Below, piece by piece: positions 2,764 to 62,506 of a DNA stretch of 64,000 nt. The translations under genes and the position numbers were made by a program. How positions within the stretch are numbered: position 1 is the stretch's first letter; every line of letters starts with the position of its first letter. Origin of the DNA: Owenia fusiformis (Eukaryota > Annelida > Polychaeta > Sabellida > Oweniidae); NCBI GenBank assembly GCA_903813345.2, contig CAIIXF020000012.1:23324184-23388183 (forward strand), written 5' to 3'. The notes under the pieces are model-generated. The model ran no database searches and was not told where the DNA came from. It saw only the letters and a program-made list of their open reading frames with translations.

Positions 2764-3001
2764 CACTTTGACTTACAAGGTCAAGTAGGTTTATTTTCAC
2801 GTGCCCCATCACATATTTGATAATTGAATCACTATCTTGTCACGCTCGCATATGTTTTCATTTAGATGTTACATATTTGGCTGTTGCTATTGAAACAATA
2901 ATAATATCACCATAGGTACACATGGAAAGCCATGACGTCACTTTTATTCATACCTCATATACGTCACAAAAAGGTGTCAAGATGGCGATGGTTAGAAAAT
3001 T
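2764..3001. promoter_or_regulatory. bidirectional promoter between two F-box genes, with CRE and E-box
   Basis: Only 238 bp separate the two divergent start codons, so both promoters must lie here or overlap the coding ends. A perfect CRE palindrome TGACGTCA is at 2933-2940, a second half-site TACGTCAC is near 2960, and an E-box CACGTG is at 2798-2803. I see no clear TATA box. A short upstream ORF opens at ATG 2982 and ends just past the ATG at 3002, so it could damp translation of the plus-strand gene. CRE-driven expression is inference from the motif. Confidence 0.5.
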
Positions 3002-4861
3002 ATGCTCGTGACTTCTCAATTGCTATTTTCATATCTGCGCGAATTTTGGCCTGCACTGCTGGAAATGTTTCGGATATCTCAGCGCCAAAGCGAAAGGAGA
3101 TTGGCGGACCATTGGAAACATCTACCTGATACAGTTCTCATAGATGTATTTCTTTTACTTCAAGACTCCGATCGCAGTGCTCTCGGTCAAGTTTGCAAAC
3201 GATTCAATCAGCTCTTTAAATCCGCACGCCTTTGGAGACGGCGTGAGTTCGATCTCACGTGCATGTCAGTCGCTGATGAAGAGCGTATGCTTGGCTTTGG
3301 GAGGAACCACGCAGCCCATCTGCGCCATCTGATATTGAGCTGTCGCCATCCTTCATACCACACGTGTACACGTTTCCAGAAAACGTTGACAACCTTTCTG
3401 AATTTTCTTTTTAGCAAGACAGAACTGTTAGAATTCAGTATGGAGCACTTAGAATTTGAGTGCTATTGGAGGTATTCAATATCGAGGGATCGTTTGCTGA
3501 CATCACTCAAAAGGTTCGTAAGGACCCAGCGGAAGCTACTTCTCTTTGATATGACCCGTGCTTTATTCAGCGCAGATGAAGGCTGTGAGCTTATCCAGTT
3601 ACTTGGAAAATCAAGTGGACAAACCTTGCAAGAACTTTACATCGAAGAACTCTTTGTGAGATCTTCCAGAATATTCCGGAATCCAATATATTTGGAGAGC
3701 GTAGCAAAGTTCAAAAGTCTGATCTCTCTTCACATCAGTTATAACGCAATTTCTGAAAACACCCTCGTAATAATTGCCCGAAATTGTGGCGAAACACTCG
3801 AACACTTAAAAATCAAGGTGCACAAACACACGTTTAGACAACATACTATCAGTCGGTATGTTTGGAAAGATATTGCAAAAATGTGTCCACGACTTGAAGT
3901 GTTCATTGAGTTCTTATGTGTTGGGAATAACGTGGAACTGTTGCGCATACTGTGCCCGTCCATTCCCTTAATTGATTTAGACATTGATAGTGGCTACAAC
4001 CACGAACAACACACATGGCGACTGAGCAATACTTTAGAATACGTCAGTGACACATACTCAAAATCTTTAGGTAGGTTTTTAACAGCCCCGTCTCGTGGCA
4101 ATTGCCCAGTGTCCAATTGTAATATGCTAGCAGAAGGAGAAACAGAACGATCAACATTCATCAAAATATGAAACTGATGAGGGTAATCAATTTTACTGAA
4201 TCTAAGAATAAAGATCCATCTTATGTAAAATATAGAATGGTTAAATGTTCTGTAATATACCGGGTGGGCGTACATCAACCCTAGCTGCAATGTGCTTTTT
4301 GCATATGTTTTCAGAGACACTATGTCTTGAGCTGGACAACCCGAGCGAGAACATAGATGGGGCTTTACGGTATCTCGTTAGAAAGTGTATATTCCTGACG
4401 TCGCTTGAGATCAACGCGCATTTGAGCGTCTCTCTGATGGAGGATATCTGTATATTGCAGTCTAATGACAAAATATGTAAGTAAAATAAATATGTAGGTA
4501 TTGAATAAAGAAACACGATTGTCATCGCTATCGGTCTTCTTAGATATTACTTTCATTTGGAGGGCACAGGGGAGGGCATCGCCACGCTAAAAAATCTAAA
4601 CAACGTTCATCGTTAAATGATTTCTTCTGTTTTACCGTTCCAGTCTTGACAAAATGCCACATAATTGCATGTAACGTAACACAAGAGGACTATTCACGTA
4701 TGAAGAGGCTACGCCAGGAATACGTCGAACAGTTTGCTTCACAGGGTTGCGACTTCAAGCTTCGTACAGACTATTTAATGGATATGAATGAGGAGTATGG
4801 AATAGCTGCCCTTGTCGATTTTGAGGACGATGATGACTTGATAAATATCCTTCAAGTGTGA
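3002..4861 (+). CDS. FBXO39-like: FBXO39-like F-box protein, three exons (paralogue 2)
   Basis: Paralogue of the minus-strand gene, transcribed away from it. Exons are 3002-4070, 4315-4476 and 4644-4861, giving 482 residues. Donors are GTAGGT and GTAAGT; acceptors follow pyrimidine tracts, and both introns are phase 1. The F-box is at about residues 37-80 (LPDTVLIDVFLLL, CKRFNQLF, LWRRR). A leucine-rich-repeat-like region follows (LISLHISYNAISENTL). The last exon reads CNVTQEDYSRMKRLRQEY and ends in an acidic tail. Exon 2 is 162 nt, exactly as in its paralogue. Where the paralogue has an intron inside the repeat region, this gene is continuous, so one intron was gained or lost after duplication. 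The expected role is an SCF substrate receptor; the substrate is unknown. ATG 3002 is the first in-frame ATG; an internal start a few residues later is possible. Confidence 0.82.
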
Positions 4862-9300: not shown

Positions 9301-9889
9301 TTATGTTATTTTAAGAAAAAATGCATAAAACAGCTGAACGAAGTTATACAACTAATGCCTCAGTCATAATCAATCTACGACAACCGTACGGTGGCCGTAG
9401 TTACAAAACGTCGAGAGAAATATATGGATAAACAGTACTATGCAGATCATTTCTATACCGAATTTGTGAAGCTACGGCCGCCGTAGAGCAAACTTGACTG
9501 AGGCTTAAGGGCGCATTGATGCAGAATCATATATTTCTTTGATTGTATGATTTCTAATCATATTCCAACTGACACTGTCGTCGATGCTGTACCTCATGTC
9601 GTATCCGATTCCATCTCGATAAGAGCTACACTATTTGAGTCAACAATCTTTTAGGAATAGAATGGTTTCTAAATAAGTTGTAGATATACCAACCTTCACA
9701 TTGCATATTGACCGTTGCTTTCAGTTCATCCAATTTACTGTCGATGTCCATTTTCATTTCATCCAAACTCTCCTGTGTCGCTAAAATATCCATCGGCAAT
9801 TTTACTTTGAAACGCCATTTGTTCCTTGGCTTAGCATTAATAACACCCGTCAAATACACCAACAGAATTCCACCAAAACAGATGTTCAT
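6325..9889 (-). CDS. secreted dienelactone hydrolase family protein
   Basis: An alpha/beta hydrolase of the dienelactone hydrolase (carboxymethylenebutenolidase) family. Exons are 9889-9694, 9230-9017, 7356-7236 and 6702-6325, giving 302 residues. The nucleophile elbow GFCFGGAM puts Cys184 where the family has its catalytic Cys; Asp236 (GENDT) and His271 (GAGHGF) complete the triad, and VIQENLG holds the conserved Glu. Exon 1 supplies a signal peptide (MNICFGGILLVYLTGVINA) and the leader KWRFKVKLPMDILATQ plus an amphipathic helix, nearly the same as exon 1 of the two amine oxidase genes upstream. The join to the hydrolase exon (donor GTTGGT, acceptor CAAAAG, phase 1) keeps the frame. It is the weakest link: an alternative is a cytosolic enzyme starting at ATG 9222 (about 234 residues), with exon 1 belonging to a relic. 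Substrate unknown. Confidence 0.78.
6805..7120. mobile_element. MITE in last intron of the hydrolase gene
   Basis: Inverted ends AGGGTGAGCCAAAAA..GTAACC at 6805 and their reverse complement ending at 7120 enclose ~316 bp without coding capacity. The ends resemble mariner-type MITE termini. I could not define a clear target duplication. It sits wholly inside the intron between exons 3 and 4. Confidence 0.65.
7357..9016 (-). other. long A+T-rich intron 2 of the hydrolase gene
   Basis: This 1.66-kb intron has no ORF with recognisable similarity. It has A+T-rich homopolymer stretches around 7560-8160 and scattered GTAACCGTCA-like words (near 8180, 8540 and 8985). I see no gene or clear transposon ends. 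Confidence 0.5.
9354..9507. repeat. palindromic foldback element, copy 1
   Basis: Left half ATGCCTCAGTCA..CTACGAC..GGCCGTAG is matched in inverted order by CTACGGCCGCCGTAG..TGACTGAGGC. The ~154 bp can fold into one imperfect hairpin. It lies in intron 1 of the hydrolase gene, between the leader exon and the first hydrolase exon. A homologous hairpin is at 20826-20977, in the same position relative to the leader-exon relic there. Confidence 0.65.
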
Positions 9890-11578: not shown

Positions 11579-14500
11579 TCAACAACCGAATTTCACACAA
11601 TCAACGACGTTAGTTGCAGCATCTACCCCAGACATATATGCACCATGTGTGTAACCATAGTAACGTGCGTTTGTATGCTCTCCAGCGAAATGCAAATTTC
11701 CAATCGGTGCCGTCATAACATCATGATCGTCTTCGTCAAATCCTATTGGCCAGTTGCTATAGGAACCCATCGTAAGAGGATTGTCTAACCACGTATTGAC
11801 CAATACGGATATTGGGTCTGGAATATTCGCGCCATACATCGACCGTAGAACGCCCATGTTTTCAGCCACGATTTCTGCCTCTGTCAGGGAAGCAATACGT
11901 TTTGCCTCATCCCCAGTAAGGGTGGACATAAGAATGTTCGAACCTGTAATATAAAGTATAAGATTAGAACATATGGAAATCTGAAATCACATTTAGATCT
12001 ACGAGGTGGGCAAAATCGAACCTTATACCATGGGCTTTCAACTAGAAAGCCCATACTTAGACATATACACTTTTTCGCATTTTTGTCTTGTTGCGCAATC
12101 CTGTGCAATATTAAGAGACTTAATCTTGCAAATACGGCAACCTATAATTTCTTTAGCTGTTTATTTTTCATACATATTTTAAACAAGCTCGTTTCGTAAG
12201 ATATTGGGGCCTCCGAGCTGAAAGCATTATATTGTGCATCGAAATCAAAATTGCCAGCATAGTATGCAATAGACATTAGTATTATACTTCCCGTTGACAC
12301 CAACGTGAAATTGCAAATATTCCGTTCTCAACACGAAACACGAAGCTGAAAGGGTAACTGAAGTAGACTAAATTAACGCTTGTTTTGAATGCGCGCTATT
12401 CACATTACTAAATTGATTTGATGGACTTTCCGTTCACGGTTACGTTGCAAAAACATTGCAAACTTAAAGTCACTATTATTGAAGGCTACCTGGATGTATT
12501 CTGGAATGGTTTAGGTTTTCCCAGATTACGTAATATCCTGGTCTTTTTGCAGCATAGATTACGTACTCCGTTTCATCCCAAAACGCATAGGGGAATTTCA
12601 TGACAATTCTTGTGAAGTGAGACATTTTGAAAGCATTAATGGCTTCTTTCTTTTCATATGAAAATGGTGGTTCGAATGTTACTTTCTCATTCTGGAGAAC
12701 TCCGAGGCTAAATGTCATAATTGCATACGCCGCTTCAATTTTTACTCCAGAGTCAAGTGTGATCCTAACCCGGTTTTTCAATGTCTCAACTTTGGACACA
12801 GTTTCATTAAGCATGGTATTTGTTTCGTTAAGAAAATCAGCAGCCGTGGCTTGAACTAAATGGCGGTAACCTCGGGGATCAATAACTCGAAAGTCACCAT
12901 CCTCGAAGTCCCAATAACTGAATAATACGCCGTATTTAAGGGAAAGTGTGTCGATATTTTCTGCATATTCGAAATCGTATTTTAAATATTCTATAGCGTA
13001 ATCAAAATTTGATTTTGCTGTCCAACCACCCAGTCGAAGTGCTACCATTTTACTGATATCATTGCTGTTGCTTTGAAGTTTCTTTATAGCCAGTTCATCT
13101 TCAAATTCCTGTGCAGCCTCCAGGCGTGTGTATGAAAGATCAACTTCTTCAGTGACATCATTTCCATTTGCATCTCGTACAGTTTTGTCTGAATGGTGTG
13201 AATTCATTCCACTTAAATCAAACTTCTGAACAAGATCCCAAATCGGATTTCCATCCAAGCCTTGTATCCAAGACGCGCCCTTTTCTATGGTATAACCGTT
13301 CCAATCAATGTGAGATATCCTACCCCCTAGCTGTGACTGAGCTTCTACTAGGATAATATCTGTAACACCCGCTTCGTAGAGGGTCTTTGCAGCCATAACG
13401 CCAGCTATACCACCTCCTAATACAATGACGGATGTGGTTTCTGAAAATGAATCATTCATACAGACAAGACACGCAGTGATAAACATCGCATTTTTATCGA
13501 ACCATTGAAAAATGGCCACCGTGTTATTTACCCAGCATGCCTAAAATCTAATTAATCTTGTAGTCCAGTTGCCAAATAGGAAAATGACACCAAAGGTCGT
13601 TTTGTGGTAGAAAGTTTTTTTCTTTGCATTTTTGGATACCTTATTGTGTCTGCATAAAATATTAGGAAGATGCAAAATTGTGCAGGCTGAGCATTTTTTA
13701 TAAAATGCCATTGAAATTATGTAATCATTTCAGAGGTGGGCGTGGCACTTTACTTAACATATTATCATATAAAGGTTGCATCTTCACCTCAATAGACTGA
13801 TATCTTAAAGTGTAAGCATGCTAGTAATAACTACAGATAGCTAGAAATGATTTATGAGCACAATGTAAAGCAATTAAATGATATATTATGTAACAATTTC
13901 AGATGGATGTGGCAATTTTGCTACTTTTTACTCATTTTCACTTTTATAGCTGAGCTTCCTAATATTTTTGTAACAATTCCCAAGATATGACCCAGGTATT
14001 CTATGTTTAACAACTGAACAAATATTAGCAAGTTGCAAAATACTGCAGGTTTTTATTTTTCATAATTAGGCATTAAAATTATGTAATGATTTTAGGAGGC
14101 GGCGTGGCACTTTCCTTCAAAAACCATCATATGAAGGTTGTTTCTGCTCAATAACCAAGTGTTTTATTTAAGTGTAAACATGCTAGTAATAACTTCAGAT
14201 AGCTCTAAATGATTGATGTGCAATATGTTAATTAATTACATAATTAATGATGCAACAATATAAGGTGGGTGTGTCAATTTTGCCAACATACCAGGGGCAT
14301 GGTGCTTTACTTTACAAACCACAATATCAAGGTTGTTTCTGCACACAAACCAACTGGTGTATTGAAATTAGGATGCTAGTTATAAATTCAGCTACAGGTA
14401 TAAATGGTTCATGTGTAAAATGTTAATTAATTACATCATGACGTTACAATCTAAGTTGGGAGGTTCAATTTTGTCACTGTTTTCACTTTTTTAGCAGAGT

Positions 14501-17500: not shown

Positions 17501-19924
17501 CAACCTTAATATGATAGTGATAGTGATAGTGATAGGTAAATAGTGCCACACCCCCTTCTCAAATAATAACGTAATTTCAATGCCTACTTAAAAAGATATT
17601 CAAATTGCAGAAATGTGCATTAAGCTAATATTTCTGCATAAACATGCACACTTGGATATTCTATTCTTAATAGAAATAGTTGCAAAAATATTAAGCTCAG
17701 TTGAAAAAGTGAAAATGAGTAAAAAGTAGCAAAATTGCCACATCCACCTGAAATTGTTACATAATATATCATTTAATTGCTTTACATTGTGCTCATAAAT
17801 CATTTCTAGCTATCTGTAGTTATTACTAGCATGCTTACACTTTATGATATCAGTCTATTGAGGTGAAAATACAACCTTTATATGACAATATGTTAAGTAA
17901 AGTGCCACGCCCACCTCTGAAATGATTACATAATTTCAATGTCATTTTATAAAAAATGCTCAACCTGCACAATTTTGCATCTTCCTAATATTTTATGTAG
18001 ACACAATAAGGTATCCAAAAATGCAAAGAAAAAAACTTTCTACTACAAAACGACCCCTACTGTGTCTACCGCTAGACTATTGGCACTGGCCTGCTCTTGC
18101 ATGCGTAAACATTTGCATTTCCAAAACTGAGGCTTAATTAAGGTTGTTTTATAAATTCAGAATCGATTGTATAATGGTGCTTGAATGGTGTGGGAGGGAG
18201 CATTAGACATTGTTTCTTGTCAAGTTAGATCATGGTTTAGGATAATTGGTCATGCTTGTTTTCCTTGTGGTGTACTCTAGATTTTCTTCTTTTTTACTGC
18301 AGCATATCTTGGGGTTATTTGTCGTTCTAACAACAGTGTCACGATTTAAGAGTTGCCGAAGTTTGTACGGTTTATTTTATTACATTGAAAAGCTCATTTT
18401 CACTACCCTTAAATCTTGACGTACATCCGTTCTAAGGTATTTTTCTTTATTCTCAATTGTATCTAAAGTTCTTGAGGAGTGAACAACGTCAACATTCGCT
18501 CCACGGTTCTGGATAACGGTTCTGCCGCAACGCGAATGTTGACGTTTTTCACTGCTCAATAAACGTGAATGTTGAAGTTGTTCTCTCTAGAAAAAACTTT
18601 AGATAGTACTATTTTTCCTGAAAATAAAGAAAGATGCATAAGAAATACAAAATACCCCTAGATATGCTGGAAAGCACAGCGAACAACCTCGATATTCGCG
18701 TCACAGCAGTCATCCAGAACAATGGAGCATGGATTGAGCGAATCATCAATAAATCGGGCGTGTTTGTTGATGTCATGTGATTTCCGCTAGATTTAAGACT
18801 GACTGACTTTTATTGTATCAACAAAAACTTTAGACCTTCCTTTCGAACATGTGAGAATATAGGTAATAACTGAGATATAGCTTTTTTGCAATGGTCACTT
18901 TTTGGGACACCCTGTATATAGTGTATGTTATGATTAATATGAAGTCTCCGAATGACTACTTTTCCCTGGTTGTAAATGTAGGTTCATATGTTATTCTATT
19001 TCGAATATGTATGTAATTCATATTGTAAGTAAAATGATGTTAGTGACGATAGACAAAATGATACAAACAGACTATTTCTGTATACTGGTTTACTTACGTG
19101 TTGTAGCTTCTGTGCATGCTAGTACGTTATGGAATCGTTTCTGAATGAATGACGCTTTGCATGCACATTTTACTCCGTCTCCAACATCTTTGCATTCAGC
19201 ATTGGGGTCGCTACAGCTATACCCGGGTAGACATGCCTCTCCCAAATCTAGTTCTTAAGAAAATCAGAATAGTACTAACCAATTGAACTTGAACAGTTGA
19301 GACATAGACTCAGTGACTTGGAATTTAAAATGGGTTAAAAGTTATTCAATTCTGACTTTTGAACCCTTAAGACAGTTTTCTATTATTTTAAAAATCTCTC
19401 GGGTTTTTACTATTTTTGAAATTGCGAAACACAATGTTACCTTTGCTACAGTCCGGAAGTGTGCATTTTTCGTATTGCTGTTCGCCAGAGTCTGAAGTTC
19501 TGCTCCTAACTCCACCAGCGCCACATGTTTTATTACACGCTCCCCATTCAGACCACACCTCGACTGCTGTTAGGAAATAAATATTTGACATTACATATTA
19601 CAAATTCAACCAGGTAAGGGCACACGATTCTAACAAGAGTAAGAGTCTACTAAGCCCCCAAAATGTCATATTTCAAATCTAACGTCAAATACTTCATGAA
19701 AAAGAATTTTAAACTTTACCTGTACAACGCGTATTAACAGCTGCTTTCAGTTCATCCAGTTTATTATCGATGTCTGTTTTCATTTCATCCAAACTCTCCT
19801 GTGTCGCTAAAATGTCCATCGGCAATTTTACTTTAAAACGCCATTCGTTCTTATTTGGTTTAGCATTACTTAGATAAGTCAAATACACCAGGAAAAACAA
19901 GATTTCGCCAATCCATATGTTCAT
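11579..19924 (-). CDS. secreted TSP1-EGF-flavin amine oxidase chimera, copy B
   Basis: Predicted secreted FAD-dependent amine oxidase, most like polyamine oxidases. Exons are 19924-19720, 19566-19441, 19253-19098, 13440-12490 and 11943-11579, giving 600 residues. All four introns are phase 1. Order: signal peptide and leader (residues 1-68), TSP1-type module (VWSEWGACNKTC), EGF-like module with six Cys, then amine oxidase with FAD-binding VLGGGIAGVMAAKTL and C-terminal FAGEHTNARYYGYTHG. The TSP1 exon is 51 nt shorter than in copy A and keeps only four of six Cys, so that domain may not fold normally. Intron 3 is 5.66 kb, swollen by a foldback element. Without the upstream exons the oxidase would begin at a cryptic ATG just 5' of its acceptor, but that ATG lies in the intron and the TTTTCAG acceptor is strong. 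Substrate (polyamine or other amine) is not determined. Confidence 0.8.
15649..15717 (-). repeat. tRNA-like sequence, probably a SINE head or tRNA pseudogene
   Basis: On the minus strand, TAGCTCAGCGGTAGCGC matches a Pol III A box / D arm and GGATTCGATCC matches a B box / T arm, with about tRNA spacing. The seven bases on each side do not pair into an acceptor stem and the anticodon arm is poor, so it is not a functional tRNA gene. No duplicate of the whole unit was seen in the window. Confidence 0.5.
15990..16075. repeat. short tandem repeat of a ~22-bp unit
   Basis: GCATATCTTCCCGCTT-like units recur four times with small differences, inside the centre of the foldback element. They make two overlapping minus-strand ORFs look open; I regard these as chance. 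Confidence 0.5.
18056..19097 (-). other. remaining part of intron 3 of oxidase B, with a hairpin
   Basis: No gene seen. A 13-bp perfect inverted repeat, CGTCAACATTCGC at 18487-18499 and its complement at 18532-18544, makes a hairpin. GGGACACCCTGTATA at about 18904 resembles a mariner/MITE terminus without a visible partner. Confidence 0.45.
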
Positions 19925-20977: not shown

Positions 20978-21079
20978 AGGCATCTGCGAAGGATCTTCAT
21001 TAATGAGAAATTATCATACTTCTTAGATTTCTAATAATATTCCAACCATTTCGATTAGAGCTACATACACTAGTACACT

Positions 21080-21220
21080 ACTTTCAGTTCATCAAATTTA
21101 TTTTTGATGTCCATTTTCATTTCATCCAAACTATTCTGTGTTGCTAATACACTCAGAAGCAAATCCACTTTGAAGTTCCATTTGTCCCTGACTTAGCATT
21201 AGTCAGACCCATCAAATACA
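21080..21220 (-). pseudogene. decayed leader exon of the secreted-enzyme family
   Basis: On the minus strand the DNA is clearly related to exon 1 of the three enzyme genes (…GGATGAAATGAAAATGGACATC… matches the segment encoding SLDEMKMDID). The reading frame is lost: the part after the Ala-Lys of the signal-peptide junction is frameshifted and runs into a stop, and no start codon or signal peptide is preserved. Flanks on both sides match those of the hydrolase gene, so it is a relic of a duplicated hydrolase-type locus whose enzyme exons are gone. Confidence 0.7.
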
Positions 21221-22756: not shown

Positions 22757-25587
22757 TCAACAACCGTAGTTCATACAATTAACGACGTTAGTTGCAGCAT
22801 CTACCCCAGACATATATGCACCATGTGTGTAACCATAGTAACGTCCGTTTGTATGCTCTCCAGCGAAATGCAAATTTCCAATCGGTGCCGTCATAACATC
22901 ATGATCGTCTTCGTCAAATCCTATTGGCCAGTTGCTATAGGAACCCATCGTAAGAGGATTGTCTAACCACGTATTGACCAATACGGATATTGGGTCTGGA
23001 ATATTCGCGCCATACATCGACCGTAGAACGCCCATGCTTTCAGCCACGATTTCTGCCTCTGTCAGGGAAGCAATACGTCTTGCCTCATCCCCAGTAAGGG
23101 TGGACATAAGAATATTCGAACCTGTAATATTAAGTATAGGATTAAAAGGATGCACGCCTGTACATAGTTCGAAAGTTAAAAGGGAACTCCTAAAGATGTA
23201 CAAAGTGAACAAAATCAAAGCTTAAACAAACAATTTTTTGCATTTTGTCTAACTTGTTGCGCAATGTTGTGCAATAATATTGAGGGGTACCCGGATGTAT
23301 TCTGGCGTTGTTTAGGTTGTCCCAGAGTACGTAATATCCTGGTCTTTTTGCAGCAAAGAATACGTATTCCGTTTCATCCCAAAACGCATAGGGGAATTTC
23401 AGGACAATTCTTGTGAAGTGAGACATTTTGAAAGCATTAATGGCTTCTTTCTTTTCATATGAAAATGGTGGTTCGAATGTTACTTTCTCATGCTGGAGAA
23501 CTCCGAGGCTAAATGTCATAATTGCATACGCCGCTTCAATTTTTACTCCAGTGTCAAGTGTGATCCTAACCCGGTTTTTCAATGTCTCAACTTTGGACAC
23601 AGTTTCATTAAGCATGGTATTTGTTTCGTTAAGAAAATCAGCAGCCGTGGCTTGAACTATATGGCGGTAACCTCGGGGATCAACAACTCGAAAGTCGCCA
23701 TCCTCGAAGTCCCAATAACTGAATAATACGCCGTATTTAAGGGAAAGTGTGTCGATATTTTCTGCATATTCAAAGTCGTATGTAAAATATTGTAAAGCGT
23801 TATCAATATTTGATTTTGCTGTCCAACCACCAAGTCGAAGTGCTACCATTTTACTGATGTCACTGCCGTTGCTTTGGAGTTTCTTTATAGCCAGTTCATC
23901 TTCAAATTCCTGTGCTGGCGCCAACCTTTTGTTTGAAAGATCAACTTCTTCAGTGACATCATTTCCATTTGCATCTCGTACAGTTCTGTTTGTGAGGGCT
24001 GAGTGCATTCCACTTAAACCAAACTTTTGAGCAAGATCCCAAATCGGATTTCCATCCAAGCCTTGTATCCAAGACGCGCCCTTTTCTATGGTATAACCGT
24101 TCCAATCAATGTGAGATATCCTACCCCCTAGCTGTGACTGAGCTTCTACTAGGATAATATCTGTAACACCTGCTTCGTAGAGGGTCTTTGCAGCCATAAC
24201 GCCAGCTATACCACCTCCTAACACAATGACTGACGTGGTTTCTGAAAATGAAGCATTCATACAAGACAGCGATCAATATCGCCCGCTTTTCGAAAAACTC
24301 AAAATGGCTTCCATGTTATTCATCCAGTATACCCAAAACCTAATCAAAATTAGATCCGGTCTTCGTCATTCTATTTAATATATAAAACAAGTAAAATGAT
24401 GTTATAGTGCCCTATATAGACCAAGCGATACAAACGGATTGTTTTTGGATTATGTTTACTTACGTGTTGTAGCTTCTGTGCATGCTAGTACGTTATGGAA
24501 TCGTTTCTGAATGAATGACGCTTTGCATGCACATTTTACTCCGTCTCCAACATCTTTGCATTCAGCATTGGGGTCGCTACAGCTATACCCGGGTAGACAT
24601 GCCTCTCCCAAATCTAGTTCTTATCAAATCAGAAATCAGAATAATTTGAATTGAACAAGGTTAGCTTGTATTCGCGAATGCAACTTTCGGCTGTCGGCTA
24701 CCTGATTAATTAACTTACTATTTTATGACCAACTCATTGAGATAGTGGCAGGTACTTTTCATATTGAATGAGTTGTCCATGATCTGGTAGCCGAAAGCCG
24801 AAAGTTGCACTCGCGAACACAAGCTTACACGTAAACTCCGAGACTCGAAATAAATAAGAGTGGGTTGACTTCAATTCTAATCACGACGTAAATCCTACAA
24901 ATTTAAAAGTTTATTCAGAGCATCTACGACTGTGTGTATACATTTTAAACTGCAATGTTAACCGTTTCGCTTGCCATTTGTTACAAACGACGAACTCCGA
25001 ACGCCAACCGCTAAACTCAAAATCGACAACCACCAAACACGGAACTGAAAAAAGTTGGAGACAATAACGATATGATACTTCTTGTGGCGGTGAGATAAAA
25101 AATGTTACCTTTGCTACAGTCCGGTAGTGTGCATGTTTCGTATTGCACTTTTGAGCCTGGACACGCTTTCCTTCCTTGTTCTGATGATGGATCTTTGCAT
25201 GTTCTAGTTCTATTCCTGACTCCATCAGCCCCACATGTTTTATTACACTCTCCCCAGTTAGTCCACAATTCCCAGTTGCCACCGACTGCAGTAAAGAAAA
25301 CATTTTCCACATTACATAAATATGAACCCCAACATTTCATTTTTCAAATCAAAACACTTCAAGAGTTTGTTTTAAACTTTACCTGTACAACGCGTATTAA
25401 CAGCTGCTTTCAAATCGTCCAATTTATTATCGATGTCCGTTTTCATTTCATCCAAACTCTCCTGTGTCGCTAAAATATCCATCGGCAATTTTACTTTAAA
25501 ACGCCATTGGTTCTTATCTGGTTTAGCATTACTTAGATAAGTCAAATACACCAGGAAAAACAAAATTGCGCTGATCCATATGTTCAT
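22757..25587 (-). CDS. secreted TSP1-EGF-flavin amine oxidase chimera, copy A
   Basis: Exons are 25587-25383, 25285-25109, 24619-24464, 24241-23291 and 23121-22757, giving 617 residues. Every intron is phase 1 GT-AG. Residues 1-22 are a signal peptide (MNIWISAILFFLVYLTYLSNA), then WRFKVKLPMDILATQ and a short amphipathic helix. Residues 69-127 form a full TSP1 repeat (WELWTNWGECNKTC, six Cys). Residues 128-179 are EGF-like (C-x5-C-x6-C-x8-C-x-C-x14-C). Residues 180-617 are a flavin amine oxidase: Rossmann GxGxxG at G188/G190/G193, LVEAQSQLGGR, and C-terminal FAGEHT at 582-587. The closest family by motif is polyamine oxidase, whose members oxidise spermine/spermidine and release hydrogen peroxide; substrate here is unproven. 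The TSP1/EGF modules predict matrix or surface attachment. Intron 2 holds a MITE. Confidence 0.83.
24663..24825. mobile_element. 163-bp MITE in intron 2 of oxidase A
   Basis: Ends of about 40 bp (AGCTTGTATTCGCGAATGC..CGGCTACC) are inverted around a short non-coding core. The only nearby relative is a single arm at 26098-26150. Copy B lacks it at the same site, so insertion followed the gene duplication or was lost from copy B. Confidence 0.7.
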
Positions 25588-35700: not shown

Positions 35701-38700
35701 ATAACCGAATTTTTCAGTCGAAGCGTGGGTAAATTTCCCATGGGATTTGGGTCTCAAAATTTGGTGTGCAGGTGTTTAGGGGTCATGGACAACAGTAAGT
35801 CAAATGAGGAAGATAATCCGAAAGAAAGTTGGTTTTTCGCCATATTTTGGACCACCCTACTGCTCCCCCCCTCCGTCCCATTTTCACGATCACCGGGCGT
35901 GATACAATAAAACGATGATTCCGGCATCTCGTGAAAGAAAACGGTAGCTACATGTAGTTGATATTGATTCAAAGACAAGTTGTTAAAAACATCGTGATAC
36001 ACATTAACTTTTAAAAGTATTCCCTTGTTTTGTTACAGCTGATACACCAACCGCAGAATGTAAAGAGGGTGATGTGATGGTTCCTCAAGTAGCACCAACG
36101 AGTACAATTACTTCTTCATCGCTACCAGACTCGAGTAAGTTATTTTTTCAATATAATTTAAAAGAAATAATTTCCACAGAGGCTCAAATCTGTAAACGTT
36201 GATAGAATTACTAATAACCAATCGGATATAATCGATGCAATGTGTTAGATTAACCCATCCCTGAAACCAATTTTTAAACAATCTGAACAGTTATATTGAG
36301 ACTTGCGGATTTTCTCAACTTGGCAAGTGCAATTCTCTTAAAACTTTGATACTTTTGCTTGGAGTTCGAAAGATTTATTTGACAGGGAGTTGGCTATTTA
36401 TTTTATGGATACTTTGACATATTTATTTGACAGAGAGTTGGCTATTTACTTTATGGATACTTTGACATATTTATTTGACAGGGAGTTGGCTATTTACTTT
36501 ATGGATACTTTGACAGGGAGTTGGCTATTTACTTTATGGATACTTTGACATATTTATTTAACAGGGAGTTGGCTATTTACTTTTGACATATTTATTTGAC
36601 AGGGAGTTGGCTATTTACTTTTAATTTATGGATACTTTGACATATTTATTCGACAGGGAGTTGGCTATTTACTTTATGGATACTTTGACATATTTATTTG
36701 ACAGGGAGTTGGCTATTTACTTTATGGATACTTTGACATATTTATTTGACAGGGAGTTGGCTATTTACTTTATGGATACTTTGACATATTTATTTGACAG
36801 GGAGTTGGCTATTTACTTTATGGATACTTTGACATATTTATTTGACAGGGAGTTGGCTATTTACTTTATGGATACTTTGACATATTTATTTGACAGGGAG
36901 TTGGCTATTTACTTTATGGATACTTTGACATATTTATTTGACAGGGAGTTGGCTATTTACTTCATGGATACTTTGACATATTTATTTGACAGGGAGTTGG
37001 CTATTTTCATTATGGATACTTCGATATATTTATTTGAAATGAAGTTGGCTATTTGCATTATGGATACTTTGACATATTTATTTGACAGGGAGTTGGCTAT
37101 TTGCATTATGGATACTTCGATATATTTATTTGACAGGGAGTTGGCTATTTGCATTATGGATACTTTGACATATTTATTCGACGGGGAGTTGGCTATTTAC
37201 TTAATGGATACTTTGACATATTTATTTGACAGGGAGTTGGCTATTTACTTTTTTGGAGACTTTGGTATATTTACTTGACAGGGAGTTGGCTATTTACTTT
37301 ATGGATACTTTGACATATTTATTTGACAGGGAGTTGGCTATTTACTTTTTTGGAGACTTTGGTATATTTACTTGACAGGGAGTAGGGTATTTATTTTATG
37401 GAGACTCCGATATATTTAATTGAAAGGAAGTTCGATCTGTTTGACGGGGAATAAGCTTTTTACTTTACAATGACTTTGATATATTTACTTTGCAGAGAGT
37501 AAACTATTTACTTTATAGAGATTTCGATATATTTACTTTATTCGGTATATTCTTATGGTCTCCGTTTTTTGACGGCGGTTGGTGGTTGGCAATCGGCGGC
37601 CGGCGTCTGTAACAAATTCTTACAACTTCCAATGATTGAACAAATACTGCATAAAATAGATTTTACCTTTAATGACCTCATCAAGGTCAAAAATATCTTT
37701 TTTTATCTTGCTTCAACTAGGTGGGGACAGTTTGTCGACTTAATGCCTTGTTTGACATGGGGTTAGGCTATTTACACTTTATGGATACTTTGATATATTT
37801 ACTTGACAGTGAGTTCGGTATATTTACTTGACAGGGAGTAGGTTATTTACTTTATGAGGACTTTGATATAATTACTTGGGGTTGGCCTATTTTCTTTACG
37901 GGCTGTCTATATGTTTACTTGACATGGAGTTGGCTATTTACCTTGCGGGGACTTTTATATTTACTTATACAATACAATACTATGTACTTCTATATATTTA
38001 CTTAAATTTATATATGAGCCAGGTACAGGAAAATGGGTTTTATCACAGATTTTTCCCTCTTAATCTTGGGCACCTTTTTGGATCTGTAGCACAATTTTAA
38101 TTTTTGTAACAAGACCGGTTTTCCTATATCCAGGCTCATAGTTACGTGATGAAAACTTTTATATTCTTACTTCATGGGGACTTGATATTTACTTGATGGG
38201 GAGTTTGATATAATTATTTCAAGAGGACTTTGAAATGTTTTTATTACTTGACGGAGATTTTGATATATTTACTTGACCCTAATAGGTGTGGAGAAGTCGG
38301 AGAATGGGTTCAAATTCAATCCTCATCTTTACGTTAAAGACTACCTGGAACCAGATGTAGAAACATACAAGCAAGATCCAAGGTTCTACGACATGTTGAA
38401 CGTGGAATACAATTACAATATTCCAATCGAGGAACAAATTTATTTTAAAACCATAGCAACACCCTATGATTGGACGGACTGCCCCTCAGTGCCACCCTCT
38501 TTTGGCTGCTCGTTTTCCAATGGAATGCCAGTGTATAGAAGTCCATTGCCAATCAACATGGGCTTGTTTGTGAACCAAACTGATATTGCGACCCATCAAG
38601 ATGAGGACAAGGACGTTACAAAGATGAAAAATAAAAAACAGAGCAAAATTCCCACAGAAAACAATGATGTGGAATTTACTGCTAACGTCAGAGATGAAGC

Positions 38701-41700
38701 ATTAAACAGCAAAGTGAAAAATGCGGGAAGTGGTATTTCAAGTGCCATTATAAGATGTAGAAAATCATCTAATTTACCAGTTCATTCTATCAAGAACACA
38801 AGGAATCATGGTGCGACTGGATCGTCTGCAACTGGATCGTCTGCAACCAAGTCGTCTGCAACTGGATCGTCCGCAGCTACAATACATGGGAATGTCTCTA
38901 CTTACCCATATAAACCTTACAAACAAGACTTTCTAATCCAAGCAACCAATGAAAACAGTGTATTCTCCAGTGATCCCATACAGAAAACTGGCAAAGACGA
39001 CCATGACGCAACATGTTTAGATTTACCGTCACATATTCCTCATCTTATTAGTGATCCAGAATATAATTTTTCCCAAGCAAACGACCGAGAAATTGATTTT
39101 CATGACTCAATTGGAGGTAATAAAAGGTCCCATTTGACACATCGTGGTATTGTTGCTGTTGATGTTCCTCTGAAAAAGCGTTGCCATAACAATAGTTATT
39201 CTGACATGCCTTTATGTAGCAACCCTAGTAACTCTAGTTCCAATGTTATGAACAAGGAAAATAGCAAAAAGCATTTTCATTCTGCAACCCTTGTTGAAGG
39301 GGACAACAAAGCCAGTGCGACACGAAGAGCAGACATTAGTAAAAATCACTCAACCAATCAAACTAGAAATCCATATAATGCAGTAGTTCAAAGATCAAAA
39401 CGATCAGCTTACATTGGTGAATATAATCTTCAAAGTAATGAGAGATATGGTAGCGAGAGACATCTTGCTCGTGAGACACTTCATGCTAGTGAAAGACATA
39501 TCGAAAGGAAGAAACCATATGAAAACACCAATAGAAAGTCTCGACTGAATGCCAGTAAAGCCATTAATAGAACAGGAAAACATGATATAAATGGAGCAGA
39601 AACAACTGGATCATTCAAAGGTCTTGCAGCACGATCTCGTCACAGTACCAATAGAGTTGTCGAAACGTGTAAATCAAACCAATATTTGGCTTGTGTGGGA
39701 GGGTTTTCTGATATGTCAACGTTGTATAGATCACCTAATAAAGAACACAGAACTGATGGTAGCCATAGCAACACTGCCCTCTCTACTCATTCTATTCCAA
39801 TGTATGAAAATGTGAGTGAAGATGAACTATCAATGGGTAATGTTGCTACAACTGGTTCATCATCAAGCAAGTTTAACGCATATGTGAGTTATAGTTCAAC
39901 AGCAAGCAAGTTTAGTACACCTTCAAACCAGGCAGCCATGTCCAACATGTTAAACACATCTGTTAGACACGATCCATTTATTAAGGTCACATCAGATGGC
40001 GGGAAGGGATTATCAGCTTGCAAATCGAGAACATCGACAACCAAAAAACATGAGGAGTGCACAGCTACAACCATTAAAACAAAACAATCCACCACTAATG
40101 AAGAGACTGGTAAAATGGAGGAAAGAGTAGGAAATGCAACCAGTTGCATCGTAGATGACAGTACAACAGACTACAGCAAATTTGATTACAACACTGGCAA
40201 CAATAAAGGTCAGTCCTCTGCAAATCGAGAAAAATCTTTGATCAGTGATCTTGATGACGTTAGTGCTATGATGGATGGAATTCACAAACATATTGATGAA
40301 CACAAAACGTATTGTGACATGCCTCTACCTACGTACACTCAGTCAGGTTGCTATAGCAGTATATCCCCACCTTCCATACTTACTGGTGGGAATAATACCA
40401 TAGAAGCATCAAATGATGGTGTATTTAATGCCCACTATATGTTACCTAGCCAAAATTCAGAGCTCTTCAATAGAAACCGTATAGATGAAAATAACAACAG
40501 GAATATTTTATCAGGGTGTATGAGCATGAATAGCAATACAGCTATTAGTATCAGCCCTAACTCAGTCCAAAGGTTGCCCTTTACAACGAATAGGCTAATG
40601 TTAAGTACAAGTAACTCTGCGTTTTCTAAGACGGCCAATATAGCACAGAACATGGTAAAGATAGCCCCAAAGAAGAAATCTAAAGATACCAAAGTTTTGA
40701 AGAACCCAACGTTACCAACATTAAACCAAAACAGTACACAACGTCCCGTGTCCAGTTTAACGTCTTCGAATGTGACTGAAATGAATGTAGGTGTGACTAG
40801 AAAGCAGACATCCTCATCAATAACCAGCTTTGATCCTTACTGCTACAATCAAGACTTGAACAATCAGTTACCATACCAGACCAACACATATGCTTGTAAC
40901 CCACCAATTATGTTAAATACCGGTCAACATCAGTTTCCATTGTCAGGGAAACCGAATACACAAAATATATATACTGTGATTCCATATAGTCAGTATCCAT
41001 ATATATATGCAACACAAACAAATGACATGAGCGAGACACGTGATGGAAATATACCCGCCACCTATCCATATCAGCTACTAAACTCCACAGCAGTTCAACC
41101 CCTAGTAGCCCAGAGTAATGTAATACAATGGCAGTATAGTTCAATCCAAGGTCAGGTGATAAACACATGTGTTGGGCAAAACGAATTGCCAAACATGCAA
41201 TCACACCAAACATTTCCAATGAATTCAGATTCAAAAGAAAAAACAGTGAAAACAAGCAAGAAGAAACGAAATCCTTCCAGTAAGAAAGCTGCAACAGCAA
41301 CAAAAGCACAACACCATTCTACCAGCATTGTGGACCTGAATCAAATGCTCGCGAAAACCAAACAAGCACTAGAGCAACAAATGAAGGCAAAACCCACGAT
41401 AAATGAACAGCTTGATGAGAGCAAGAAAGATGTACACGTAGCACCAAAGAAAACCAGAAAATCTAAAAAGAAATCAGTTGAACAGAAAAACTCTTTAAAA
41501 GCTGAGGCGTTTAAGAGAACAAAACTCGGATACGAGCCACTTGACATTGCAGCGTCCTTCAAACCTGAAGCGACCTCTATCTACAGGTGTAAGGAACCAG
41601 TCAACACAACCGATCATGCCTATGAATCGTCAACCACGATGCAGAATCTTGACCACAAATGTGCTTGGAATGCAGCAAAGTCAATACCCATTGCAAGTGA

Positions 41701-44700
41701 AATGACAACGAAGTTGAAGCCTATGGTGAGCAAGATGTCAACAAAAATGATACCAATGACTTCTAAACCAAATGGAAATGATAAGACTACCATATTGACA
41801 ATGGAAGGTGATCTTTTTCTCAGTGACGTCAAACATAGCACGACGTCAATATCTTTGAATTTGAACAGTAATGTTGATATAGTTGAGGACAATGTGTCAG
41901 GTAGAACTGATGGCAATACAGTTGGTATTGGGATATTTCCTCAAAAGGAAGAACTCCGATTGGAAAAATTATTTGGAGAAGCTCCGACCTACCTTCAGGA
42001 ATATGAGTATGAAAGTAAGTGTATGGTAAAATGTAAAGAAACCAAAGAACATTCCATCGACGTCGTACTTGTAGGTGATGTAGAAAAACCTGCATGCAAA
42101 ACAACCACTGTTGATGTAATCAATGTGGCAGATAAACATAATCGTGTCCAAGGAAACATGAATGCAGAATTGTGTTCTGAAAATATCAGTGTCAACTCCT
42201 CGGAAAAGACATGTGACCATCAAGGCAAAGCTTCAAGATTGACGGCAATCGATGAAGATCTTCAGGGCGAGATGACAACACTGTCTATAACCAATGGTGA
42301 TCATCAACGCCACAGTTCAACACCATTAGGTCACACTACACCTTTGTTAACAATAAAAAGTGATCGCCAAATCGACACTGAAACACTCTCAGCTATCGAC
42401 TCTGATCATAAAGATGACACTACATCTTTGTCAATAACAAGTTGTGATCGTCTAGGCAGCACTATTACACTGACTGCAAACAATGATAATAATCAAGGTC
42501 ACACAACAACACTATCTCCAATCGATAGTGATCGGCAATGCCATGCTGTAACACTTTCATCAATCAATGATGATCGTCAAGGCGACACTATGGCACTGTC
42601 AATAATCAGAAATGAGCGCCAGGGTGACACTTCAGCACTTTCTCCAATCGATGATAATCTTCCAGATCACATTGCAACACTCTCAATAATCAATGACGAT
42701 CATCAAGACAACACTACAACAACGTCAACATTCCATTGTGATACTTTTGCTGACACTAACATGAAAAGCACTCAAATTATAGAGAAAACAGCAGAACATA
42801 TATCTGATAATGCTACTACAGATCATACAAATGAGATGAAAAATGACGAGCTATCAGATAATGCTATAAGAAATGCCAGAAAAATGTTTTTGGAAACTCT
42901 AAAATTGAGCCAGCTAACAAACATATATGATAGAAAGGTTGAATCAGCAACCAGTAGCGACGCGCACAAACACACATCGGGGACTTCTTACCCCAAACCT
43001 TTTGTCAAAACAAATAACTTGGTTGAAAATGATGTAGAAATATCAGAATTTCTCAATTTTATTCCACACAATACAAGGCAAGATAATATTGATCAACAGA
43101 CTAGAGCTATGAAAAATCCAATTATTAGCCAGAATTACAGCAAAACGGATGATGAGATCAGTCTAGATCAAACAGCTCTGGAATTCCCATTACATTGTGA
43201 TGAGGCCTTAATAGACGAGGACGTCCGCTTTAAACCAATAACTGACAAAATGATACAGCATGCCAATGAGGTTGTTACGCAATCGGAGAAAGCAGGTCCT
43301 CAGAAGCATGCAGTTTTGGACATAGCAACAGCAAGTATAGCAACTGTGTACAACAATAAAAACATGAATCCTTGGCTGTTTACATCTCCAGTCTCACGAC
43401 CGACCATAACATCTGGGACACCAGAGTCCATTAAGAGAATAAGATTAAAGTTCCAGCATGGCTTTCAACCACTGCAGAAGGACAATGGAGCTGATGTTCC
43501 TGCCACAGTCGGTGTGCAATGTTTACCCAAACATCCAACCCCACCCACATTAACAGGGGCAAACAAGGTATTAGATTTATCAGAGCCGATTTTAAGATCT
43601 CCACCCAAAGCACGACATATTTGTGGACCATTAGAGAGAGTTTGCATTCCCTACCACTATTCCCCTAAAGTAAAAATCGTGCCTACAATACTGAAAACGA
43701 AACAAATAAAGCCATCTACGAGTGTTCCAAAGTTAAGTCAACATTTTACAGAAGGGACATCCGGTACAGAACTTGTGAGATATACACGTAGCTCCGAAAT
43801 TGGACACCAGTATGCGAACCATCCAAACAACAATGTTGATTTTACGAGTACCGCATCAAAGAACGTGTATGGCTCATATACTACTAGTGAATGTAATACC
43901 ATTGGTTTGCTCAACCCGGATGTCTACTATAAAACCTGTCCCGTGACAATCGTGTACAGTAGACCTGACAGCCATACTGATACCACGTGCACACTTGTAC
44001 AAACCAATACCATACCTGTACACACTAATACTACACCTGTATTCTCTGATGCAACACCTGTATACATTGATTCAAATATAATCACTGCTGAAGCTCAACA
44101 AAGTGATAACGCTGAACATGAAAATGCAATTAAAGATAAGTTACGTGTGAAACGCGACATTGATAAAAAGACTAAGACGCAAACAAAAGACTGTCCAATG
44201 GTCATGGATGACGTCATACAGATTGTTGAAGAAACGGGTGTAAATATGAATATAAATCACAATGGTGTACATATGATGCAAGAAGTGCCCCACAGAGTCG
44301 AAGAGTCCGTCAGCAAATTTTCACATAAAACTGATGTTTATGAATCACATAATGACAACCCGGATCAAACAGAAGTAACGATCAAAGAATGTGAAAAACA
44401 TGATTTGTCAAATGAAGCTCCATTAAATATTGGTAATGTTTACCCTTGGGAAAATAAGGAAACCAATGTGGATCGTTGGAGTACAAAGGTGCATGATGAA
44501 AACATGAAAGATGATGAAAATGTGAATGACATGGATGATGGAAGCGCGTATATTAAGGATGAAGACAAGAGTATGGATTATGAAAACACGAACTTAGAGG
44601 ATGGAGACATAAACGTAGAGGATGGAAATACAAAGGTTGATGAGGAAAACATAAACGTAAATGATGACAACATGATTATGGATGATGTAAACATGAATGA

Positions 44701-47700
44701 GGAAGATGTTAACACAAATGTGGATTTTGAAAACACAAATGATAGAAGCAATCATGTTCGTGACATACATGTGATGACAGATATTGGAAAAGATACAGAG
44801 GGAACCATAAAGACCATTGATTGTGTAAATCGTGACAAGGACAGTAAAGGAAGTCCCAATCAAATCACAGGCAATAAACTAAGTCGAATTGTCACCGATG
44901 CACAAACACAGGAATTAGACAACAGTATGATCTTTGAAGTAAAAACTTTTACAAACAAACAGAATAATAACATGAGCAGGGAAGATGAAAATATATCAGA
45001 TGAAGTCGTTCAACCTAATGGTTGTTTACCTAAAAGATCAGAAGAGCTTAGTTTGAATAAAATCGTCATTGATAAACGATGTCTTGGTACATTAGAATAT
45101 GGTAGCAATGATTTTTATCAGAAATGCAATACACATAAAAGAGCAGATGATGTTGAAGTAGCCACACGGGATAAACCATACCCGCTAACATGTAATGATG
45201 TGGCAACCAGTGATGTTGCACAAATACCCAAAGAACGAATGGAAAAACAAGATCAACCCGAACTATCTGGAGTAATCCAGATGTTTGGCGGAAGAAAGAC
45301 TACAAGGGGTAGTCTGAAGTTAAGTGATCTTGAGTTAGCGTCTGTGTCTATGTCACTCTGTGATTTTTCATCCAATGCGAACGCAGGTGTTTTAGAACAC
45401 GCCCTTCATGTAATTGACATGAACAACAATGAACCAGAGGGCTGCTTACATGTGGACGAATTGATAAGTAATAACAATGCGTTACCCGTGGAAAACAAAA
45501 CAAACGAGTCTGAAAATTCAAAACATATTGATATAGTACCAGAAGATGATGTTGATCCATCTCCAGTTGACAATGATCATGTGGTTCAAAACCAACCAAA
45601 CGTTGAGCAAGCTAATTTGAATAACCACCAAATGATACCTGATGAAAGAATGGGGACAAAGGATATGACCACTGAAACTGAAACTTCAAAAATAAATGAC
45701 ATCGTAGCAGGTGACAATGACAATACTGTTGAGGAAAGCCTTGATCTTTGTGATAATACTTGTTCTAGTGTATCAGATATAAGCCAAGCAAACAAAGGCA
45801 ATAATTATTGTGAAGCTAGCGTAACAAATCATATTGCAGATCAATCTTTCAATGGAGGTTACACTGTGCCTATGAGTCACCATTATGGTGGAACAATTGT
45901 CTGGTACCCAACGCATGATTCAAGTGATGGTCAGCTTGAAGAGAATACCTCACATTTGAGTCCTAAAAGCTTAGGCAATCAACTCATATCCTTCCTGGAA
46001 AGGATATCATCTAGAGCAGGTAGAAAATGTGACGCAGAAAGTACAATTGCAATGGAAAGTACCGTAGATGATCCGCCACCTAAGAAGAACCTGTTAATAG
46101 ATCCATTTGAAGAAGTGCCAAAAGTCACTGATTCATTTGATGTGCAGCCTAAAGTACTGAAATCAGTAAATGGAACACAAATGATATCAGATCAAAAAGG
46201 GCACTTTGATCTGGGATTTTCGGCACAAAACAAAACAGTAGTACCAAACAATACGATGGCACCATGCAATACAATAGCACCATGCAATAAAGTTATACAA
46301 AACAATATAGTGGCACCAATCGATATGGTCGAGTCATACAGCACAGCGCCACCAAACAATACATTAGCATTAAACGAAACGGTGTCACCAAACAATATAG
46401 TGGCAATTAACAATACAATGACACAATACAAAAGAGTGTTACCAACATATACAACAGCACCAAATAACACAAAGACAACAAACAACACAGTGGCACTTAA
46501 CAATACAGTGGAACCAAACAACATAATGTCACTAAACAATGAGTTGCCACTAAACAACACAGAATACCAAGACAAACCATTGGACTTAACAATGGGACAG
46601 AAGAGAGAACATGAAACTGATAAAGTTGTAGATGACGATGATACCCCTAACACTAAACGAAGAAAGGACATTGAAATATATGCAGAGAGCAATAAATTTG
46701 ATACAGTTGACTCAGATACTGATAGATCAATCGGATATTGTATGTCACCAGAGACAAATCCCATATGGGATGAACATAATGACGAAACCGGAGAATGCTA
46801 CAGAGAATCTCTAGATTTCCAAAGCATGCATGCACGTGAATCGCATCACATTTACCCAAAAAGAGAAATATTCGCAGGCGATCAAAGTTTATTGAAAAAC
46901 TATTCACAATCTGTGTTCCCTGAAAAGATTCCACAGTTTATATCCGATTCAAGACAAGCGTCCGAGAAAATAAAATTAAGGAAGAGGGGGAACACTACTA
47001 CAACTGTACCTAAGGCAAGGGCTACAGAAGGCTTTGATGACGAGGATGAATTCAATGAACTAGTTATTGATATCAAAGAGGAAGGCGCAGATGATACTAT
47101 TGGTGTGTCTCATAGTTCGAACCAATCAACGCGGAGGAAATCTAAGCAAGTGATGACTGGGAGAGCATTGGACCAATCAGCGAGGAGTAAACATGGACAC
47201 GTGATGACTGAGAGAGCATTGAACCAATCAGTAAGTGGCAAGAGCGCGTCAAGTAGTGAGACGGGGGATGATACGGAGTGGAAGCCATGGCAATCACATA
47301 AAACCTATCAGTACAATACCTCCAGCCAAAAACTACGCAAAAGGAAGAAAATCAAGAAAGAACGTATCGATGGGGAAGCTATTAGTGCTGTAGATTTAAC
47401 TGAAGTTGAAAGACCTCTTAAGTAAGTTTAACATTAATTTTTTCGGTTTCTCAAGGTCATTCAGGAGCAAGTTGTTTTTGCACATTTCAATCATTTTCAA
47501 ACCATTTGTTTGTCAATTCTATAAGAAAACGGTACTCTCTGACATGTCTACATTATCATAGGTATGTTATAAATCGTTTATGTCACTATCGTGGCACATA
47601 TGCCCTCGGTTCTCAGAGATCAATGTCACTCCCAAGGTCGGGCCATATATCACTGAGACCTCGGGCATATATGCCACGATAGTGACATAACCTCTAATTA

Positions 47701-61800: not shown

Positions 61801-62476
61801 TTGGAATATCAACTATTTCAGAGTTGACCACCTTGTCAAAACATATATCATTCATAAAGTTATAATCTATTCGTCGTATAATGTTTTGATTTTTATGACG
61901 CCATGTGAACATTTTCTCATTGGGATGAAAAAGGCGCCAAGTATCATTCATGTTATTTTGATAGATAAGATTTTTGAATCCATTTATTTCATTAATATTA
62001 TGGTTTTTACCACTGATGTTATCAACATTTGGTTCTAAAACACAATTAAAATCACCAGCTATAATAAGATTTACATTATTTGAATTGAAGTCTTTGATGT
62101 AACCATCTAATTTATTGTAAAATGATATCTTATCTTGGTTTTGATTTGGTGCATAAGTGTTGATGCACCTAAACACTTCATTTTCATGAGTAAATTCTAA
62201 AATCAAAATCCTACTTTCCTGGTGAAGAATGCTTACATCAGTGTATTCAAAATTTTTCTTAAATAAAATGATTTCTCCTTTGCTGTGTGCTGTGCCAGGG
62301 TTAGCATAAATATCACCACCCCATTCCATTTTCCAATTATTTATCAAATCATCTGTTATATAGCACTCTTGCAATATCGCAATATCACAATCAATCTGCT
62401 TCAAATATTTGAAGCAAGAGTATCTTGTAAGCCGTCGCCGTAATCCTTGGACATTTCCTGAGAATATTGTTATCAT
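58852..62476 (-). pseudogene. LINE ORF2: endonuclease-reverse transcriptase, broken
   Basis: About 1,200 residues from 62476. The N-terminal endonuclease shows NVQGLRR, LQECY, GDFNCVL and SDHRG motifs (residues 8-240). The reverse transcriptase, from about 61020, has GCPLSPICYILATELF and the catalytic YADDSTLF. Near the end a C-x2-C…H…C knuckle (SSKCTSCDEIDNLEHHFVKC) is typical of LINE tails. Two lesions stop translation: a one-base frame change at an A-run near 61607-61620 and an in-frame TAA at 61105-61107. It is 30 bp downstream of ORF1. Otherwise well preserved, so the insertion is young. Confidence 0.85.
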
Positions 62477-62506
62477 TTAAACATATTTGTAAAGTGTGTG
62501 TTTAAA

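Follow-up and report, generated by a model that had tools for sequence, protein, structure and literature searches.

The locus described here raises two questions: whether an animal genome joins a secreted FAD amine oxidase to TSP1 and EGF-like modules in one reading frame, and whether the resulting protein would produce hydrogen peroxide, as a sequence-only reading of the DNA had proposed. The window is the whole stretch of DNA analysed, 64,000 nucleotides long. Within it the gene, here called G1, has five minus-strand exons that form a single open frame of 617 amino acids, and all four introns are GT-AG and in phase 1; the coordinates and junctions first proposed for these exons are correct. 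Exon 1 (25383..25587) starts with ATG, is open to a phase-1 donor and encodes a signal peptide and a heptad-like leader with a terminal cysteine, both assigned by eye. The N-terminus is hydrophobic (residues 1-19 have a mean hydropathy of 1.73), S-N-A precedes the likely cleavage site as judged by eye, and the product is predicted to be of the secreted type. Exon 2 (25109..25285) encodes a TSP1 repeat, identified by its six cysteines and its match to Pfam TSP_1 (E 1.7e-10, 41.4 bits, cut-off 21.6). It contains the motifs W-x-x-W and CNKTCG, which we take to be marks of C-mannosylation and O-fucosylation. Exon 3 (24464..24619) encodes a module with six cysteines. Exon 4 (23291..24241) encodes the first part of the FAD amine oxidase, with an arginine (AGA) at the position of Lys300 in the maize enzyme, and exon 5 (22757..23121) the second part, with Tyr403, Glu430, Tyr439 and the stop codon. 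Pfam Amino_oxidase matches G1 over its cut-off (E 1.1e-62). The 14 NCBIfam families listed are all far under cut-off and mostly match the nucleotide-binding start. A secreted-type protein in which phase-1 exons place TSP1 and a cysteine-rich module before an FAD amine oxidase is therefore supported.

The identity of the cysteine-rich module required some revision. It had been called EGF-like, and its six cysteines are indeed conserved, but no EGF family exceeds its Pfam cut-off in G1 or in the second window copy, G2. EGF_3 gives 15.8 bits (E 0.016) for G1 and 19.0 bits for G2 against a cut-off of 28.5, so that the EGF label alone is weak. The locus at C11:27.34 Mb has three TSP1 exons and, after them, a series of similar modules; strung together or alone, these match Pfam EB at 31.5 and 26.3 bits (cut-off 24.3), and they align with the oxidase module at all six cysteines. 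For these two reasons EB/EGF-like is the better name; the oxidase module itself has no EB match in Pfam at E ≤1. A single-sequence AlphaFold model of the module (mean pLDDT 65) gave seven Foldseek matches, none at E ≤0.001, and a profile search of the PDB gave no match at E ≤1.

G2 spans 19924-11579 on the minus strand and has the same five exons, open over 599 amino acids: signal peptide and leader (19720..19924; mean hydropathy of the first 19 residues 1.47), a shortened TSP1 repeat (19441..19563), the EB/EGF-like module (19098..19253), the first oxidase part, also with arginine at position 300 (12490..13440), and the second oxidase part with the stop codon (11579..11943). Identities to G1 for exons 1 to 5 are 94.1, 79.7, 100, 94.5 and 97.8%, the module exons being identical in DNA. 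The TSP1 exon of G2 is 54 nt shorter than that of G1 and encodes four cysteines, the third and fourth of the domain being gone; it matches Pfam TSP_1 at E 2.3e-4 and 21.7 bits (cut-off 21.6). Whole introns and outer flanks of the two genes show 42-69% aligned identity and length ratios of up to 25-fold. In the 120-base flanks next to the exons, seven of ten have a local match of at least 19 bases at 74-88%, and six of ten score above the best of 20 shuffles. Conservation of the exons against diverged introns is more than chance. The sequence-only reading counted G1 and G2 as two independent copies; they are tandem duplicates and so do not constitute independent evidence for the exon order, for which a pair of paralogs at C12:10.067-10.081 Mb provides stronger support. 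The G1-G2 dN/dS of 2.06 for the second oxidase exon, calculated from one synonymous and seven other changes, was set aside.

Several further observations concern this tandem pair. The module exons (24464-24619 and 19098-19253) have no synonymous differences, while dS is 0.53 for the TSP1 exon and 0.21 for the leader; this patchy divergence hints at gene conversion. A diverged copy of the leader exon lies between the two genes (21078..21220, minus strand). The 5.7-kb intron of G2 contains an inverted repeat of 372 bases, 96% complementary (13595-13966 and 17684-18055), perhaps a mobile element that lengthened the intron.

The paralog pair, L001 and L002, forms a cluster 13 Mb from the window on the same contig, C12, of this 498-Mb genome. 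TSP1 and module exons recur there at C12:10,066,987-10,067,877 and C12:10,078,813-10,079,380, each followed by an oxidase that is 64-66% identical to that of G1 in the first oxidase exon and 71-72% in the second. A genome search with the module exon gave 26 matches at E ≤1, of which four are strong, each lying ahead of such an oxidase; those ranking next, at 43-47% identity, are on C11. Adjoining L002 is L003, a decayed oxidase fragment with no TSP1 or module match. The order TSP1, module, oxidase is thus found at four of the five loci of the clade (G1, G2, L001 and L002). The product of L001 (C12:10.06 Mb) is open over 633 amino acids and is encoded by a short exon, a hydrophobic exon (mean hydropathy 2.9 across 19 residues), a stalk exon, and then TSP1, module and oxidase; its module matches no Pfam EGF family at E ≤0.1. 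L002 is similar, with an extra stalk exon and a second TSP1 exon. Both start with a membrane-anchor exon, not a signal peptide, and their proteins appear to be held at the cell surface by a type II membrane anchor. A genome search with the membrane exon gave nothing beyond the 10-Mb cluster better than E 0.845. Two local features of the cluster were also seen. The first oxidase exon of L002 (L002:5874-6824) has an in-frame TAA in an otherwise open paralog, which may be a recent loss, a polymorphism or an assembly error. In L001 the end of the TSP1 exon and its splice donor are tandemly repeated with 88-base spacing (L001:4600-4935), and the repeated donor could provide alternative splice sites.

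The paralogs also bear on whether the TSP1 and module exons belong to the oxidase transcript at all. The oxidase could be made alone from a start before exon 4, with the modules belonging to another gene, and in-frame ATGs are indeed found at least 7 (G1, G2), 17 (L001) and 11 (L002) codons before the oxidase exon's first complete codon. The positions of these ATGs differ between the two clusters, however, the G1 module exon is free of stops to its phase-1 donor, and the next matching acceptor, 222 bases on, is that of the oxidase. The exon order is moreover identical in paralogs at 65% identity. We consider separate transcripts very improbable.

Other loci show the oxidase without modules. 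L004, on C5, has a signal-peptide exon joined in phase 1 directly to an oxidase exon; a run of N follows this first oxidase exon, and a second was not found at the locus. Contig C156 carries L005 and two copies of L006, one with a signal-peptide exon like that of L004 and a shortened oxidase, the other with stops. As judged from their exons, module-less, membrane-anchored and secreted forms coexist in one genome. Read from its exon phases, the assembly of the gene is a classical case of phase-1 shuffling, with exons inserted between those for the signal peptide and the enzyme. A maize-type secreted oxidase would have gained TSP1 and the EB/EGF-like module as a cassette in the phase-1 intron that separates its signal peptide from its catalytic domain, and the TSP1 exons and EB array on C11 are a likely source of that cassette. 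The process would be readable in a single genome, in which the form without modules and likely donors of both modules and leader can be identified.

The leader has its own history. Directly downstream of G2 lies a dienelactone-hydrolase-like (DLH-like) gene of the secreted type (9889-6325, minus strand), whose leader exon (9694..9889, minus strand, ends read by eye) is homologous to exon 1 of G1 and G2 and has 73% protein identity to the G1 leader. A homologue on C7 (L007:4727-7139, plus strand) has the same leader exon, and its mature part gives E 4.6e-33 with Pfam DLH. Because two loci combine this leader with DLH and the window alone combines it with the oxidase, the simpler assumption is that it moved from DLH to oxidase. 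The leader of G1 and G2 is probably derived from the DLH-like family, and the window lineage would have taken its present leader exon later than the cassette, from a family with an adjacent member.

The closest solved relative of the oxidase is maize polyamine oxidase (ZmPAO1, PDB 1b37), a secreted-type enzyme as G1 is predicted to be, which matches G1 across the whole domain (residues 183-613, 260 bits, 35% identity). LSD2 (123 bits), human spermine oxidase (116 bits) and PAOX (102 bits) score lower. In maize numbering G1 and G2 have Gln62, Glu170, Phe298, Arg300, Ser402, Tyr403 and Tyr439, and all of these except Arg300 are states given for PAO clade I in Table 1 of PMC7576179; Phe298 is found there in one of 36 clade I proteins. 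Clade I, as that source describes it, comprises plants, fungi and red algae, with an ancestor taken as extracellular, and animal PAOs in its Table 1 belong to clade II only. The clade I aromatic sandwich is given as Phe or Tyr403 with Tyr439, phenylalanine also being listed for fungi (PMC7576179). Tyr403 and Tyr439 are present in G1, G2, L002 and L003; L001 has Cys439 and Asp170. Glu170, Tyr403 and Tyr439 are thus shared with clade I as listed in PMC7576179, and G1 differs in having Arg300, TSP1 and EB/EGF-like modules in front, and an animal host. Since the tree includes no full-length animal SMOX or PAOX, placement of G1 in clade I is indicated, not proven. The search for close bacterial relatives used pattern scans of genome contigs. 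The first matched 596 stretches, none confirmed; the second matched 172, one of them confirmed, a Chloroflexi sequence (L015) at 31%. As the patterns were few, the scans argue only weakly against recent transfer.

The five sequences G1, G2, L001, L002 and L003 form one clade (support 96/99), and all five have arginine at position 300, encoded by AGA in G1, G2, L001 and L002. The tree has long branches at L012, L008, L015 and maize, and its midpoint root serves for drawing only. Lysine is present at this position in L004, L005, L008, maize PAO, the Chloroflexi L015, L009 (a PAOX/SMOX-like exon) and one L006 copy, the L006 residues being read outside the tree alignment. The exceptions are asparagine in the stop-containing L006 copy and methionine in L012, a distant sequence that is protoporphyrinogen-oxidase-like by eye; the asparagine means that loss of the lysine is not wholly confined to the clade. 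L008 (C12:22.60 Mb) is a PAO-like gene in pieces that keeps Lys300 and has Asn403, Ser430 and Thr439.

One explanation of the shared arginine is that it is a sign of decay in a set of pseudogenes. Some members have in fact degraded: L002 has its in-frame stop, L003 is a fragment, and G2 lacks two TSP1 cysteines. Those two, however, are cysteines three and four of the repeat, which we take to be disulfide partners of each other, and in G1, G2 and L001 the frames are open throughout and the splice sites intact. The same residue, arginine, is found in five of five. Between G1 and L001/L002, dN/dS is 0.13-0.14 for TSP1, 0.06 for the module, 0.19-0.20 for the first oxidase exon and 0.22-0.24 for the second (Nei-Gojobori; dS 0.76-2.4, the large values being rough); L005 and L004, with saturated dS, are left out. 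Given this constraint, decay is scarcely credible as an account of the family.

The sequence-only reading described a complete FAD amine oxidase that makes peroxide. The fold is complete, but the active site is not, and the claim of peroxide production is unsupported. Section 11 of PMC7576179 calls Lys300 "strictly conserved in all PAOs", and PMC12272882 reports the lysine in nearly all flavin amine oxidases, with a water-mediated hydrogen bond to flavin N5. Taken together, the statements on this lysine in PMC7576179 and PMC8009472 indicate that Lys305 of MAO A corresponds to maize Lys300. PMC8009472 reports that the K305R variant of human MAO A was entirely inactive in every condition which that study tried, and that K305M still oxidised the amine but reacted poorly with O2. 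The K305R mutant resembles the present case in that arginine replaces a conserved flavin-facing lysine, and differs in being a laboratory mutant of a mitochondrial enzyme, a single mammalian MAO from another branch of the family; here the change is natural and occurs in five paralogous sequences. Replacement of Lys300 throughout the clade, together with the inactive K305R, makes H2O2 production by G1 doubtful. Because the lysine is absent, the G1 family is described here as PAO-derived and is not filed as PAO.

A working (poly)amine oxidase would account for part of these data. Tethered to matrix, mucus or cuticle, such an enzyme would produce peroxide that serves defence or cross-linking, and its arginine would be tolerated or compensated. 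The domain is full length and constrained, arginine is also basic and keeps the positive charge, and Glu170, Tyr403 and Tyr439 are retained in G1 and G2, as suits a working enzyme; the retained charge and residues also count against a pseudo-oxidase. We nevertheless think a working oxidase unlikely, given the strict conservation of the lysine stated in PMC7576179, the inactivity of K305R reported in PMC8009472 and the fixation of arginine in every clade member. That the lysine was lost while constraint persisted elsewhere in the FAD enzyme argues that G1 is most likely not an ordinary H2O2-making oxidase.

The reading that we prefer, with slightly more belief than doubt, is that G1 is a real, selectively maintained phase-1-shuffled gene whose product is exported and probably held in matrix or mucus, and is most likely a pseudo-oxidase that binds amine or flavin, or else a flavoprotein that does not use O2. 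The leader, TSP1 and cysteine-rich module would retain the exported protein in extracellular matrix or mucus, or multimerise it. Matrix tethering is reasonable to infer from the W-x-x-W and CNKTCG motifs of the TSP1 repeat. With the flavin-facing lysine changed to arginine, the protein may bind amine or flavin, or pass electrons to an acceptor other than O2. Exon order, intron phases, constraint, nearest family and the Lys-to-Arg change can be read from the sequence; secretion, matrix binding, loss of O2 chemistry and the direction of leader transfer are inferences drawn from it. A broader proposal, on which doubt slightly outweighs belief, is that of an extracellular pseudo-oxidase family with a plant-like PAO domain in an animal. 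Lys-to-Arg would have been fixed on the branch that gained matrix modules, giving secreted and membrane-anchored forms that bind amines or transfer electrons while inert to O2, and the anchor would have been swapped between a membrane segment and a leader taken from a neighbouring hydrolase gene.

Other extracellular amine or amino-acid oxidases of animals include the secreted L-amino-acid oxidases and the membrane copper amine oxidase AOC3, a copper enzyme with a type II anchor. AOC3 resembles L001 and L002 in its anchor, as these appear, and differs in being a copper enzyme. L-amino-acid oxidases are more distant from G1, the best chain so named among the 60 matches listed scoring 69.6 bits compared with 260 for maize PAO. 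We know of no L-amino-acid oxidase or AOC3-type enzyme with TSP1 and EB modules. A literature search brought up no publication describing an FAD amine oxidase with TSP1 and EGF; the closest analogue in it is Tuphoxin, a tunicate phenol oxidase with the order EGF_CA-TSP1-tyrosinase, for which PMC9395347 proposes interaction with matrix. In Tuphoxin, as predicted for G1, EGF-type and TSP1 modules precede the oxidase domain of a secreted protein, but that domain is a copper tyrosinase (PMC9395347) and in G1 an FAD amine oxidase. Of the 18 Pfam families that G1 was listed with, none is tyrosinase, and a text search of two PAO-evolution papers did not find the word "thrombospondin". If it is real as a protein, G1 would serve as a natural test of a Lys-to-Arg substitution at the very residue to which O2 activation in flavin amine oxidases is ascribed, and the lysine-bearing relatives in the same genome would be ready controls for the arginine clade. 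It would also be a plant-type extracellular PAO relative in an animal, of a kind unlisted in Table 1 of PMC7576179.

The rest of the window contains other features. An open frame of 1543-2772 on the minus strand matches Pfam F-box-like (E 1.4e-7), and the adjoining plus-strand frame at 2996-4171 is similar by eye. A plus-strand frame of 3053 codons at 38264-47425 is rich in Ser, Thr and Asn and has no Pfam match at E ≤0.01. Long tandem arrays with periods of 48 and 21 bases are found at 36253-37395 and from 51968 onwards. Non-LTR retrotransposon-like frames lie at 58852-63409 on the minus strand, with a zinc knuckle under cut-off (E 0.0011), a reverse transcriptase (E 5.8e-32) and an endonuclease (E 3.2e-8).
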